DNA from: DHVE2 group archaeon
GTDB lineage: Archaea > Thermoplasmatota > Thermoplasmata > Thermoplasmatales > Aciduliprofundaceae
DNA length: 64,000 bases
Direction: 5' to 3'
Assembly (NCBI GenBank): GCA_026993785.1
Contig: JALWRZ010000010.1
Coordinates: 62,001 to 126,000, forward strand
The notes under the pieces were generated by a model. The model was given only the letters and a program-made list of their open reading frames with translations. It had not been told where the DNA came from and made no database searches. Positions 5,254 to 50,186 of this stretch are shown one piece after another. How positions within the stretch are numbered: position 1 is the first letter of the stretch; the number at the start of each line of letters is the position of its first letter. Position numbers and translations under genes: made by a program.

Positions 5254-6048
5254 TTATTTATTCTTTTCCTTGACAAAAAACATCACGTACTCATGCTTGA
5301 AAATATAGTAACCATCTTTAAGGGCTCGATATCTCCAAAGTGCTCTTTGTCCCCTCTTCCCTCTATTTTCCTCTATATTTTTAACCACGATACTTTTTAG
5401 CTTGAATCCAAGCTCCATTATCACCCGCATGGTGTAGAAACCCAAGGGTATCCATTCTCCCTCAGAGTATTTGTCACCAATCACAAGAACCAGATAGCGA
5501 TTTTTATCCAGATGCTTTGAGGATAATTCCACCACTCTCTTAAAACCTTCTAAAAATTCATTAAGTGTGGTAGCATTGGAGAGATCTCCCTTCTTATTCG
5601 AGAATTTAATTATATCCCAGTATGGCGGGTGCAGAATAACAAGCTGAAATTTCCCTAGTCCTTGATATGTAGATTTTGCAGCTGCATCTCCCACAATGAG
5701 TTTTGTCGTTACCTTATATGGATTCTCCTCATTCTTTACAAGTTGAAGGGCTTTTTTGGCAATTTCTTCATTTATCTCTATTCCCACGGCATTTCTACCC
5801 AATCTTCTGGCTTCAATGAGCGTTGTTCCAAGACCGGCAAAGGAGTCAAGTACCCATTCTCCACGTCTTGTGAAGCGTAGCATGGCTTGACGGGGTATCT
5901 GAGGCACAAAGTTTCCATGGTATTCGGGGGTGTGCATCCCGCTGTTATCTCTAGATGGAATTATCCATAGGGAGTCGGTCCATATTTCCTCATACTCTTT
6001 CCATCGCCTTAAATCTATATCGTTTATCTTCACAGTTAAGGTATGCAA
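5254..6048 (-). CDS. DNA methyltransferase, N4-cytosine/N6-adenine type
   Basis: 264 residues with the SAM motif I placed after the target region (DSFAGLGTTLIEARRLGRNAVGIE) and a motif IV of LHPPYWDI, i.e. HPPYW in place of the usual DPPY or SPPYW. The order and the GDKYSEGEWIPLGF stretch match the COG0863 modification methylases. No restriction endonuclease is next to it, so it may be a solitary methylase. It is followed directly by the MBL protein on the same strand. HPPYW is a known variant in this group, and activity is likely though unproven. Confidence 0.78.
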   Translation of the reverse strand: MHTLTVKINDIDLRRWKEYEEIWTDSLWIIPSRDNSGMHTPEYHGNFVPQIPRQAMLRFTRRGEWVLDSFAGLGTTLIEARRLGRNAVGIEINEEIAKKALQLVKNEENPYKVTTKLIVGDAAAKSTYQGLGKFQLVILHPPYWDIIKFSNKKGDLSNATTLNEFLEGFKRVVELSSKHLDKNRYLVLVIGDKYSEGEWIPLGFYTMRVIMELGFKLKSIVVKNIEENRGKRGQRALWRYRALKDGYYIFKHEYVMFFVKEKNK

Positions 6049-6070
6049 AGCGAGATTTAAAAGTTTTTAA

Positions 6071-6289
6071 TACGAAGGGGGCTGACGCCCCCTTTCTAAA
6101 CCCCCTAAAGATAAGGGAGGAGGGTAGAGGGGAGAACGAGCATCTGAGATGCGAGCGAGCCCTGCGTCAGCGGGGCGTTGCGTAGGTGTCCCCTCGTATG
6201 GGAACCCACCGAAGGTTAAAATTTAAAAGGGAGGGGTGTAGAGAGGGGAACCGTAGGTGCCCCTTCGTGGGGAACCCGCTGGTGGTTCA
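6071..6289 (+). repeat. Dispersed structured repeat, copy 1
   Basis: A G-rich non-coding block filling most of the 312-base gap between two divergently flanking gene blocks. It contains a GGGGGC-TGAC-GCCCCC hairpin at its left end, a GCATCT-G-AGATGC hairpin at 6140-6152, and GCCCTGC-GTCA-GCGGGGC at 6159-6176, closed by an outer AGGGGA/TCCCCT pairing. About 140 bases are nearly identical to copy 2 at 12.3 kb, and the whole length aligns with the reverse complement of copy 3 at 50 kb. The right half (6230-6289) repeats a gtaggt-cccc-cgt-gggaaccc pattern seen in the left half. No open reading frame of note. Confidence 0.85.
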
Positions 6290-6360
6290 TCGCATTGTTT
6301 GGTTGCAGGAGGGAAAGGGAACCTGGTGGTGGTTCCCATAGCTAGAGGTTCCTAGGCTTC

Positions 6361-10280: not shown

Positions 10281-10401
10281 GGGGCCGTAGCTTAGCATGG
10301 TTGGAGCACCCGGCTGATAGAGCCCCTTTGGAAAAGGTGCTTCACCCCCAAAGGGTGCTTCAGACACCGGGAGGTCGCCGGTTCAAATCCGGTCGGCCCC
10401 A
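10281..10401 (+). tRNA. tRNA-Ile(GAT) with a 46-base intron
   Basis: Exons fold as GGGGCCG...CGGCCCC with anticodon stem CCCGG/CCGGG, anticodon GAT at 10316-10318 and T-loop TTCAAAT. Between position 37 (10319) and 38 (10366) lie 46 extra bases, at the canonical archaeal intron site. The intron ends can form the bulge-helix-bulge that the splicing endonuclease cuts, and its middle can pair as CCCTTTGG/CCAAAGGG. No CCA is encoded. Confidence 0.9.
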
Positions 10402-12268: not shown

Positions 12269-12308
12269 ACTGATTGTATTTCAATGCAAAAGATAAACTT
12301 TTCGCTAA

Positions 12309-12452
12309 GAAGGGGGCTCCGCCCCCTTTCTAAACCCCCTAAAGATAAGGGAGAGGGGTAGAGGGGAGAACGAGCATCTGAGATGCGAGCGAGCCCTGCG
12401 TCAGCGGGGCGTTGCGTAGGTTCTCCCTCGTAGGGAACCCGCTGGTGGTTCC
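12309..12452 (+). repeat. Dispersed structured repeat, copy 2
   Basis: Nearly identical to the left half of copy 1 from the GGGGGC/GCCCCC hairpin through both internal hairpins to the GTTGCGTAGG box. The outer stem differs in a compensated way: GAGGGGAGAAC pairs with GTTCTCCCTC here. After GTAGGT it runs directly into the gggaacccgctggtggttc end that in copy 1 lies 80 bases further on, so copy 2 looks like a deletion between the two GTAGGT-CCC repeats. It sits just upstream of tRNA-Pro. Confidence 0.85.
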
Positions 12453-12510
12453 CATTGGGAAAGGTTTTTATGTGTTTTTACATTCACTCCCTTGTAGGAT
12501 GCTGGAAGCT

Positions 12511-12583
12511 GGGGCCGTAGGGTAGCTTGGCATCCTACCACCCTGGGGCGGTGGCGACCCGAGTTCAAATCTCGGCGGCCCCA
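12511..12583 (+). tRNA. tRNA-Pro(GGG), integration target
   Basis: 73 bases with acceptor GGGGCCG/CGGCCCC, anticodon arm CCACC-CTGGGGC-GGTGG (anticodon GGG) and T-arm ending TTCAAATCTCGG. The gene remains intact because the integrating element restored its last 16 bases. A T-rich promoter region lies at 12460-12480. No CCA is encoded. Confidence 0.93.
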
Positions 12584-12624
12584 CTAAAAAGTTTCTCGGT
12601 CCCAACCAAATTTGAACAAACCAT
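12565..12624 (-). pseudogene. 5' fragment of the attP-spanning gene, cut by integration
   Basis: Directly after the integrase stop, the minus strand has AGGAGGTGAG and then an ATG at 12624 that reads MVCSNLVGTEKLFSGAAEI and hits TGA at 12565-12567, just past the att core inside tRNA-Pro. The same frame continues without interruption at attR (32923 downwards), giving a 72-residue protein if the ends are joined. So this is the 5' part of a gene that is whole only in the circular form. The good ribosome binding site and exact frame match argue against chance. Confidence 0.7.
12568..12583 (+). other. attL core
   Basis: AATCTCGGCGGCCCCA, the last 16 bases of tRNA-Pro, occurs again in the same orientation at 32923-32938. 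A tRNA 3' end repeated on the far side of a tyrosine integrase is the classical attachment-site arrangement. Confidence 0.93.
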
Positions 12625-12626
12625 TT

Positions 12627-13502
12627 TTACTCACCTCCTGATTTTTCTTCTACAGAACGGGATTTTACATCATATCCCCCAAATAGATCATCCTTCTCAT
12701 AAATCTGAGAAAGGGTAATTGAAGCGAGTAAAGACTTAAGATATACCTGAGTGGTAGACAAAGATGCATGCCCTAAATACTGTCGGATTGCTTCCAGGTC
12801 CACGCCTTTCCGGTATAGATCAACTGCTCTCCAATGCCTACAAGCATGTACATGCAAAGGTACGCCTAATGCCTTACCTATCTGCCAGAAAATAGCTCCT
12901 ATCGTTTTAATATGAATACGGCCCTGTGGAGTGGTGAAAAGCGCATATTTGTCCGATGCAATACGGTAATATCGAATATATTCCTGGGTTAATCTCCAAA
13001 CTTCCTTGGGCATGGGGATGCGTCTGGAGACATTCATCTTAGAATCACGGATGCTTATCCAGTTCTCAGAAACATCAGAGATGTTAAGATTTGCAATTTC
13101 TCTACGCCTTAACGCCAAAAATGCATAGCGTATTATTAGCTGATTTCTCTTGGTGATTGCTGGATCTGCCCATCTGAAATTCAATATCTTTTTCATATCC
13201 TCATCGGAGGGAATGTATATCTCTTTCACACTCCGTGTGTGCCAGGTTTTCAATTTTATATCTCTGCCCAGAAAACGCATATAAACGTTTATCGCCTTGA
13301 TATCATGATTAAGAGCTACTTTGCCCCGATGCATCTCCTGATTCATGATCCATTTGGTAAGCTCCAGAGATGTCGCAGTTTCTAAATCTATCTCTTGGAA
13401 TATTCTCCTCAATCTGCGATCGTAATCATCTATTGTCGCTCTTCTATAGCGTTCATTGAACATCCACATCAGAAATTCTTCACGATGATAACTCACTCCC
13501 AT
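12627..13502 (-). CDS. int: Tyrosine recombinase, element integrase
   Basis: 291 residues. The SAM-like core-binding domain is at 5-80 and the catalytic domain from about 95. Active-site residues visible are Arg in LALRRREIANL (about 132), H219 and R222 in HACRHWR, H245 in LGHASLSTTQ and the nucleophile Y254 in TQVYLK. It is an intact gene, unlike the SSV-type integrases that are split by integration; here the split gene is the one behind it. It overlaps the upstream wHTH gene by ten bases. Its target is the tRNA-Pro at 12511. Confidence 0.92.
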   Translation of the reverse strand: MGVSYHREEFLMWMFNERYRRATIDDYDRRLRRIFQEIDLETATSLELTKWIMNQEMHRGKVALNHDIKAINVYMRFLGRDIKLKTWHTRSVKEIYIPSDEDMKKILNFRWADPAITKRNQLIIRYAFLALRRREIANLNISDVSENWISIRDSKMNVSRRIPMPKEVWRLTQEYIRYYRIASDKYALFTTPQGRIHIKTIGAIFWQIGKALGVPLHVHACRHWRAVDLYRKGVDLEAIRQYLGHASLSTTQVYLKSLLASITLSQIYEKDDLFGGYDVKSRSVEEKSGGE

Positions 13503-49938: not shown

Positions 49939-50153
49939 TAGAAGGGGCACCTACGGTTCCCCTTTCTAAACTCCTCCCTTCTTTAAACAAGGGTTGGGGC
50001 ATCTACGCAGCGCCCTTTTCAGGGCTTGCTCGCAAATCCATAGGATTTCCTCATTTCCTCCTCTAACCCCTTCCCTTTTTATTGGGGGTGTAGAGAGGGG
50101 GCGCCAGCCCCCTTCGGGGCTTTAGAAAGGGGGCGAAGCCCTCTTCGTAGGAA
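49939..50153 (-). repeat. Dispersed structured repeat, copy 3
   Basis: The reverse complement of this block aligns along its whole length with copy 1: the C-rich left hairpins, GAGC(A/G)AGCCCT, G(C/T)TGCGTAG, and an identical 22-base GGGGAACCGTAGGTGCCCCT-type end near 49940-49961. The hairpins differ in sequence but not in pairing: AAATCC-ATA-GGATTT at 50034-50048 replaces GCATCT-G-AGATGC, and GCCCT-GAAA-AGGGC replaces GCCCTGC-GTCA-GCGGGGC. It fills the gap between transketolase and the oxidoreductase operon. Confidence 0.82.
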
Positions 50154-50186
50154 AGGTTTAAGGTTTAATAACCCATTCCCCCCTCT

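Follow-up and report, generated by a model that had tools for sequence, protein, structure and literature searches.

What kind of sequence keeps its hairpins paired while the letters in the arms change from copy to copy? The question is raised by a repeat with three dispersed copies in a 64,000-nucleotide stretch of archaeal DNA (hereafter, the window). An earlier note, made from the letters alone, had taken these copies for a structured non-coding RNA of no recognised class, with compensatory base changes and with no accompanying ORF or transposase. The window comes from a genome here called G000 (1.66 Mb in 14 contigs), that of a heat-loving archaeon of the Aciduliprofundum/DHVE2 type within the Thermoplasmata; other genomes are designated in the same manner. 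The three copies lie where the note had placed them, with slightly different limits, and can be resolved into hairpin units of a few types (X, Y and Z). These, their immediate neighbours and one tRNA intron with a further unit type (W) are, in window positions:

6071-6340, plus strand: element copy 1, with units in the order X, long Y, Z, short Y, Z, Z
6072-6105, plus strand: X unit of copy 1, ACGAAGGGGGC-loop-GCCCCC TTTCTAAACCCCC
6113-6198, plus strand: long Y unit of copy 1, matched by the covariance model, with two inner hairpins
6140-6152 and 6159-6176: the inner hairpins of this long Y unit, GCATCTGAGATGC and GCCCTGCGTCAGCGGGGC respectively
6226-6268, plus strand: short Y unit of copy 1, whose antisense strand matches, in relatives, tRNA-Pro introns of the Y type and units in tRNA 3' flanks
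6301-6338, plus strand: Z unit of copy 1, similar in reverse complement to the tRNA-Pro(UGG) intron of G000
6046-6069, minus strand: BRE/TATA-like promoter of a DNA methylase gene (5254-6048, minus strand), facing outward and abutting the X end of copy 1
12306-12456, plus strand: element copy 2, with X at 12307-12339, long Y at 12347-12431 and Z at 12433-12454
12292-12306, minus strand: BRE/TATA GCGAAAAGTTTATC of an S9 peptidase gene, abutting the X end of copy 2
12457-12471, plus strand: BRE/TATA GGGAAAGGTTTTTATG of tRNA-Pro(GGG), abutting the Z end of copy 2
49941-50148, minus strand: element copy 3, with X at 50116-50148, X at 50083-50115, long Y at 49997-50079 and short Y at 49941-49982
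50142-50165, plus strand: BRE/TATA of the POR gamma gene, abutting the X end of copy 3
10320-10365, plus strand: intron of tRNA-Ile(GAT) (gene 10281-10401), a W-type unit, AGCCCCTTTGGAAAAGGTGCTTCACCCCC

The contrasts described between the inner hairpins were recovered. The first reads GCATC-TGA-GATGC in copies 1 and 2 and AAATCC-TAT-GGATTT in copy 3; the second reads GCCCTGC-GTCA-GCGGGGC in the former and GCCCT-GAAA-AGGGC, with its GAAA loop, in the latter. The inner hairpins of copies 1 and 2 are identical, and the evidence for pairing within the window therefore amounts to one contrast. The outer stem had also been said to change in step between copies 1 and 2. This change turned out to be one-sided, because the 5' side is the same in both (GGGGAGAAC) and the 3' side alone differs (GTGTCCCC versus GTTCTCCC). 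In copy 3, a flanking pair is broken (GAGC to GAGG). A phage-integrase-family gene (12627-13502, minus strand) lies after tRNA-Pro(GGG) in the window (12511-13502), possibly at the edge of an integrated element.

Copies in G000 were counted from searches and from retrieved stretches of the genome. A similarity search gave 75 matching pieces, which were resolved to at least 39 loci, each of them a mosaic of the few unit types. The general plan of a unit is a GC-rich hairpin with a tail behind it, for example TTTCTAAACCCC. Unit X consists of ACGAAGGGGGC-loop-GCCCCC and then TTTCTAAACCCC or CTCTCTACACCCC. Unit Y, on the opposite strand, is X-like with a longer hairpin body (ACGAAGGGGCACC...GGTTCCCC TTTCTAAACCCC), to which the long Y adds two internal hairpins. 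Unit Z, frequently in tandem, is (GGGTTGCAGGAGGGAAT)GGGAACC-CGCTGGT-GGTTCCCAG. The common order is X, inverted Y, Z, with related units in both orientations inside one element; the number of each unit varies, and the composition differs at nearly every locus. The smallest complete element (L036) has a three-armed cloverleaf fold closed by ACGA/TCGT, plus a Z hairpin. As in REP/BIME repeats, these are high-copy intergenic palindromic units, often inverted. No parent transposon of the kind expected for a MITE was found.

A genome-wide covariance-model search, which the earlier note had proposed as a check, was run with a model of 93 positions built from 27 Y units. It matched 55 places in G000; of 18 genomes searched in the family, 11 had matches. 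The X pattern was found in four of 292 genomes sampled across the phylum, all four in this archaeal family. Named genomes with matches are the DHVE2 group, Aciduliprofundum sp. and Thermoplasmata archaea AUK050 and AUK260. The places matched in G001, G002 and G003 coincide with those in AUK050, AUK260 and DHVE2 S014_41, respectively. Among viruses, the X motif occurred in one contig only, and the other units were absent from the stretch examined.

The most probable answer is that the copies belong to a non-autonomous repeat specific to the family, whose hairpin units are interchangeable and sit at promoter edges, at tRNA 3' ends and at tRNA intron sites. The repeat is concentrated in one archaeal family, its junctions are fixed, and its presence at a given site differs between relatives; we infer that the units are mobile. 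They would be mobile DNA spread by an enzyme, or would spread by conversion between copies. Insertions would survive where they leave a promoter unbroken or where splicing removes them. No transposase or target duplication was identified, and Y1 transposases are absent from G000, G007 and G009.

The link with tRNA genes lies in their introns. Some of these genes were labelled Leu by ARAGORN and were assigned to Pro by their anticodon loop CTT(T/C)GGG. With the tRNA-Pro(UGG) intron of G000 as query, retrieved G000 sequence gave 30 matches at 22 loci, all within arrays (best match 97% over 36 nt, E 4.6e-13; 0 for shuffled queries). A Y-type tRNA-Pro intron of G011 gave 39 matches in G000 at 26 loci, of which 38 were in arrays (shuffled mean 0.05). 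Over 36 nt, an intergenic unit of G001 is 100% identical to the core of the G000 Pro intron; this unit is located ~130 nt downstream of the G001 tRNA-Pro(UGG), which itself has a Y-type intron. Array units and tRNA introns are thereby shown to share sequence. In the tRNA copies, ARAGORN places Y-, Z- and W-type units at the splice site, with an intact tRNA after their removal. The W type (AAGCCCCTTT..AAAAGGTGCTTTACCCC) provides introns of tRNA-Ile, Asp, Arg and others; in G001 and G002 it stands between genes as a module. Only the shared ends of the long Y body were found in the introns examined.

The unit type at a given tRNA varies among relatives. A search with a tRNA-Pro(UGG) gene that carries a Y-type unit showed the intron of this tRNA to be, in most of the family, GAGGAACCACCAGCGGGTTCCTTTACCTCCTGCAACCC, the reverse complement of Z: this Z type is found in G000, G006, G007, G009, G011 and G013. 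Two relatives, G001 and G003, have a Y-type unit inside the same gene. The Pro(CGG) intron is Y-type in G002, G007, G009 and G011, and Z-type in G000, G013 and G016. Four genomes of another genus (G004, G008, G010, G012) have an intron-less Pro(UGG), and one of these, G008, carries array units. Comparison of the predicted introns shows that Y-type and Z-type cores have been exchanged between orthologous introns. Where the swap is between introns of Pro(UGG) and Pro(CGG), these two tRNA genes, being similar, may have undergone gene conversion. At the predicted 37/38 intron site, the unit makes up the intron core. More tentatively, and with slightly less than even confidence, we propose a mobile element with a unit able to live as a tRNA intron, where the splicing endonuclease would make insertions harmless; the same units would recolonise fixed intergenic positions, namely promoter edges and tRNA 3' ends. 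If so, archaeal tRNA introns in this family would be a niche of a transposable repeat.

A second position associated with tRNA genes, and a second proposed niche, lies just after the tRNA 3' end. In several relatives, units stand directly after tRNA genes in intron-sense orientation, starting after ...A-CT. At loci chosen mostly for their elements, this was the case for 10 of 18 tRNAs in G001-G003 and for 8 of 15 in G007/G011. At loci selected by tRNA similarity, with a query that contained one unit, ~16 of 34 were counted by eye. None of the 16 tRNAs in the retrieved loci of G000 has a 3' unit, although this genome is the richest in promoter-edge arrays. The fixed start after tRNA 3' ends suggests some targeting besides selection. 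CRISPR-like arrays with the repeat GTTAGAATCGGACCATGGTGGGATTGAAA were also seen near tRNA genes, at L042 2314-4101 (G000:C1) and at L214 (G001). The array in G000 adjoins an X/Z element and tRNA-Arg; in G001, tRNA-Lys has a similar repeat immediately after it.

Could the tRNA introns themselves be the source, their excised RNA being ligated or reverse-transcribed and returned to tRNA processing sites and to intergenic DNA? The intron site and the tRNA 3' end, which are occupied in the same sense, are both cut sites of the pre-tRNA, and some units are near-identical to present introns. Yet, the array copies have no flanking tRNA exon halves and abut promoters or tRNA 3' ends instead. Intergenic copies lack the full intron ends (e.g., TCCAGAAA) and are therefore not exact copies of excised introns. 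Moreover, tandem Z units show no intron-circle junction, and promoter-edge copies are antisense or mixed. This makes introns an unlikely source of the repeat.

The third proposed niche of the mobile repeat, and the one represented by the copies of the window, is the position just outside the BRE of promoters, which units would occupy as inverted mosaic arrays. De novo motif finding returned a ribosome-binding-like motif rather than TATA; for this reason, promoters were scored with a fixed textbook BRE/TATA consensus (RRAAARNTTTAWAW, minimum score 12 of 14), at a time when the flanks had already been inspected. Of 39 X ends, 26 had an outward-facing BRE/TATA motif, and so had 18 of as many Z ends, mostly within a few bases of the end of the element; random stretches reached the score in 3.9% of cases and control promoters in 32%. 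The promoters of the S9 peptidase and of tRNA-Pro(GGG) border copy 2 exactly on its two sides, and copy 3 lies between those of transketolase and POR gamma. Since the ends of the elements stand against outward-facing promoters, the neighbouring genes are not expected to transcribe the arrays.

Promoter cores, including that of POR gamma, are kept in relatives that lack the element. In G001, the promoters of the divergent transketolase/POR pair are back to back, the element is absent, and no clear target duplication is seen between them. This was the one clean empty site found with both neighbours conserved, and presence or absence cannot by itself tell gain from loss. The S9 peptidase promoter of G001 also has an element, which shares the junction but is composed differently. 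At L034, L013, L036 and their orthologues (L091-L098, L230-L246), the neighbouring genes differ by species just upstream of promoters that are conserved and, in G000, have elements. Rearrangement breakpoints may coincide with the sites of elements. A degenerate element of G007 (L237) also abuts the orthologue of the L013 promoter, which suggests repeated use of the same site.

Precise placement at promoter edges on both sides and directly after tRNA ends might also be expected of DNA elements kept for a function, for instance between divergent promoters, where they might act as insulators or supercoil sinks, or after tRNA genes, where they might be terminators, and the GC hairpin followed by a T-rich tail would suit such a role. 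Yet, the elements are missing at orthologous promoters and tRNAs of relatives, and their composition varies from locus to locus. We regard retention for such a function as rather improbable.

We give still less credit to REP/BIME-like repeats moved by a Y1 transposase of the IS200/IS605 type (RAYT or PATE-like) and landing 3' of a short target motif. Hairpin units, inverted pairing, a precise 5' junction and the lack of an obvious target duplication are what such a process would leave, and single Y1 transposase genes do occur in G002 (L072, G002:C165) and G003 (G003:C83). However, no Y1 transposase is present in G001, G007, G008, G009 and G011, nor in G000, which has most of the copies. A Y1 (PF01797) transposase as mobiliser in G000 was discarded accordingly, and the absence of these transposases leaves an IS200/IS605 or RAYT origin unsupported in that genome. 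The earlier remark that no ORF or transposase accompanies the repeat agrees with this, Y1 being the type searched for. In the accessible text of PMC2817692, PMC3116915 and PMC3733652, REP/BIME and REPINs with RAYT are likewise short intergenic palindromic units that form inverted mosaic composites; the present repeat differs by a host without RAYT (Y1), by units that double as tRNA introns and by its placement at promoter edges.

There remains the question of pairing. Among the copies of G000, the first inner hairpin has 17 distinct arm forms and the second has 18, nearly all of them paired, and the single contrast of the window thus becomes many across the genome. The 39 elements fold far more strongly than their dinucleotide shuffles (mean z -5.5). 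The repeat is dispersed, structured and pair-preserving, as the earlier note had it, and an Rfam scan at gathering score matched only tRNAs, in agreement with its statement that no known RNA class is involved. The step from compensatory change to RNA, at the exclusion of a DNA repeat, fails because palindromic DNA repeats can show the same pattern. Selection on an RNA should leave G·U pairs on one strand and not tolerate A·C. In G000 alone, there were 12 instances of G·T and 2 of A·C, from few independent forms; with the related genomes the distinct forms numbered 14 and 9, a weak strand excess. The two strands differed in folding energy by a mean of -7.7 kcal/mol, against -6.1 in shuffles (p 0.019, uncorrected for relatedness), a difference that is mostly compositional. 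A long-range helix between the tails of neighbouring X and Y units was rejected, tail variants agreeing in two of six scored cases. From the strand counts, the largely compositional energy difference and the tail matches, we conclude that pairing, although real, leaves the choice between RNA and DNA undecided.

That each copy gives rise to a structured RNA of a new class, as the earlier note had proposed, is very unlikely: strong folding, numerous pair-preserving variants, GNRA-type loops on one strand and the small strand excess in folding energy speak for it, but the excess of G·T over A·C is not decisive, the copies lie outside the neighbouring transcription units and against outward promoters, their modular make-up changes at nearly every locus with units in both orientations, and the tail-to-tail helix shows no covariation. 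For the intergenic copies, the evidence does not speak for an RNA gene, given the lack of a decisive strand bias and the position of the arrays outside neighbouring transcripts. The idea of an RNA survives in a form that had not been foreseen, since Y and Z are tRNA intron sequences, which would be transcribed within the pre-tRNA. If the units are mobile, pairing of the arms would be kept because the hairpin is the substrate of the spreading process and, in tRNA genes, also because the intron must fold for splicing. The repeat is a case in which pair-preserving changes alone do not prove an RNA gene.

Bacterial BOX-type intergenic repeats have a modular order of distinct sub-units in each copy. 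The present repeat shares this organisation; it differs in being archaeal, in its sequence and in having units common to tRNA introns. In Caldiarchaeum, a mobile element is also linked with the gain of one tRNA intron (PMC3293823); that element is 1.8 kb long and encodes a recombinase, whereas the units described here are non-coding hairpins of 35-120 nt. Transposition of introns between tRNAs is known in Thermoproteales from a 2010 study, described in the accessible parts of PMC4090602 and PMC4033280. The likeness lies in near-identical introns across isotypes and in the exchange of intron sequence between tRNA genes. The present case concerns another phylum, and many units lie outside tRNA genes, in promoter-edge arrays and at tRNA 3' ends, an extragenic reservoir of which those parts of the two articles give no description. 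One of these reviews, in the same parts, calls the mechanism by which archaeal tRNA introns are gained and move unknown, and the other asks for snapshots of insertion. The literature searched, with most subscription papers outside its scope, contained no account of tRNA-intron units dispersed as extragenic copies and nothing joining tRNA introns, intergenic repeats and this lineage.

This family gives a setting in which to study the spread of archaeal tRNA introns. Its snapshots are many: extragenic copies number in the dozens, intron cores are swapped from species to species, and insertions sit at fixed positions. The question can be tested by comparison and in the laboratory, because some of the species bearing these units have small complete genomes; G007 is a single contig of 1,486,778 bases.

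A 19-base core of X (GCCCCCTTTCTAAACCCCC) was also seen in other phyla, at L050, L065 and L068 (Altiarchaeota), L069 (Micrarchaeota) and L052 (archaeon SpSt-1190). Mis-binning, transfer or convergence may explain these occurrences. In the three Altiarchaeota loci, which come from two MAGs, the X core is followed by a different hairpin (GGAATTTGCTTCGCAAATTC-like).
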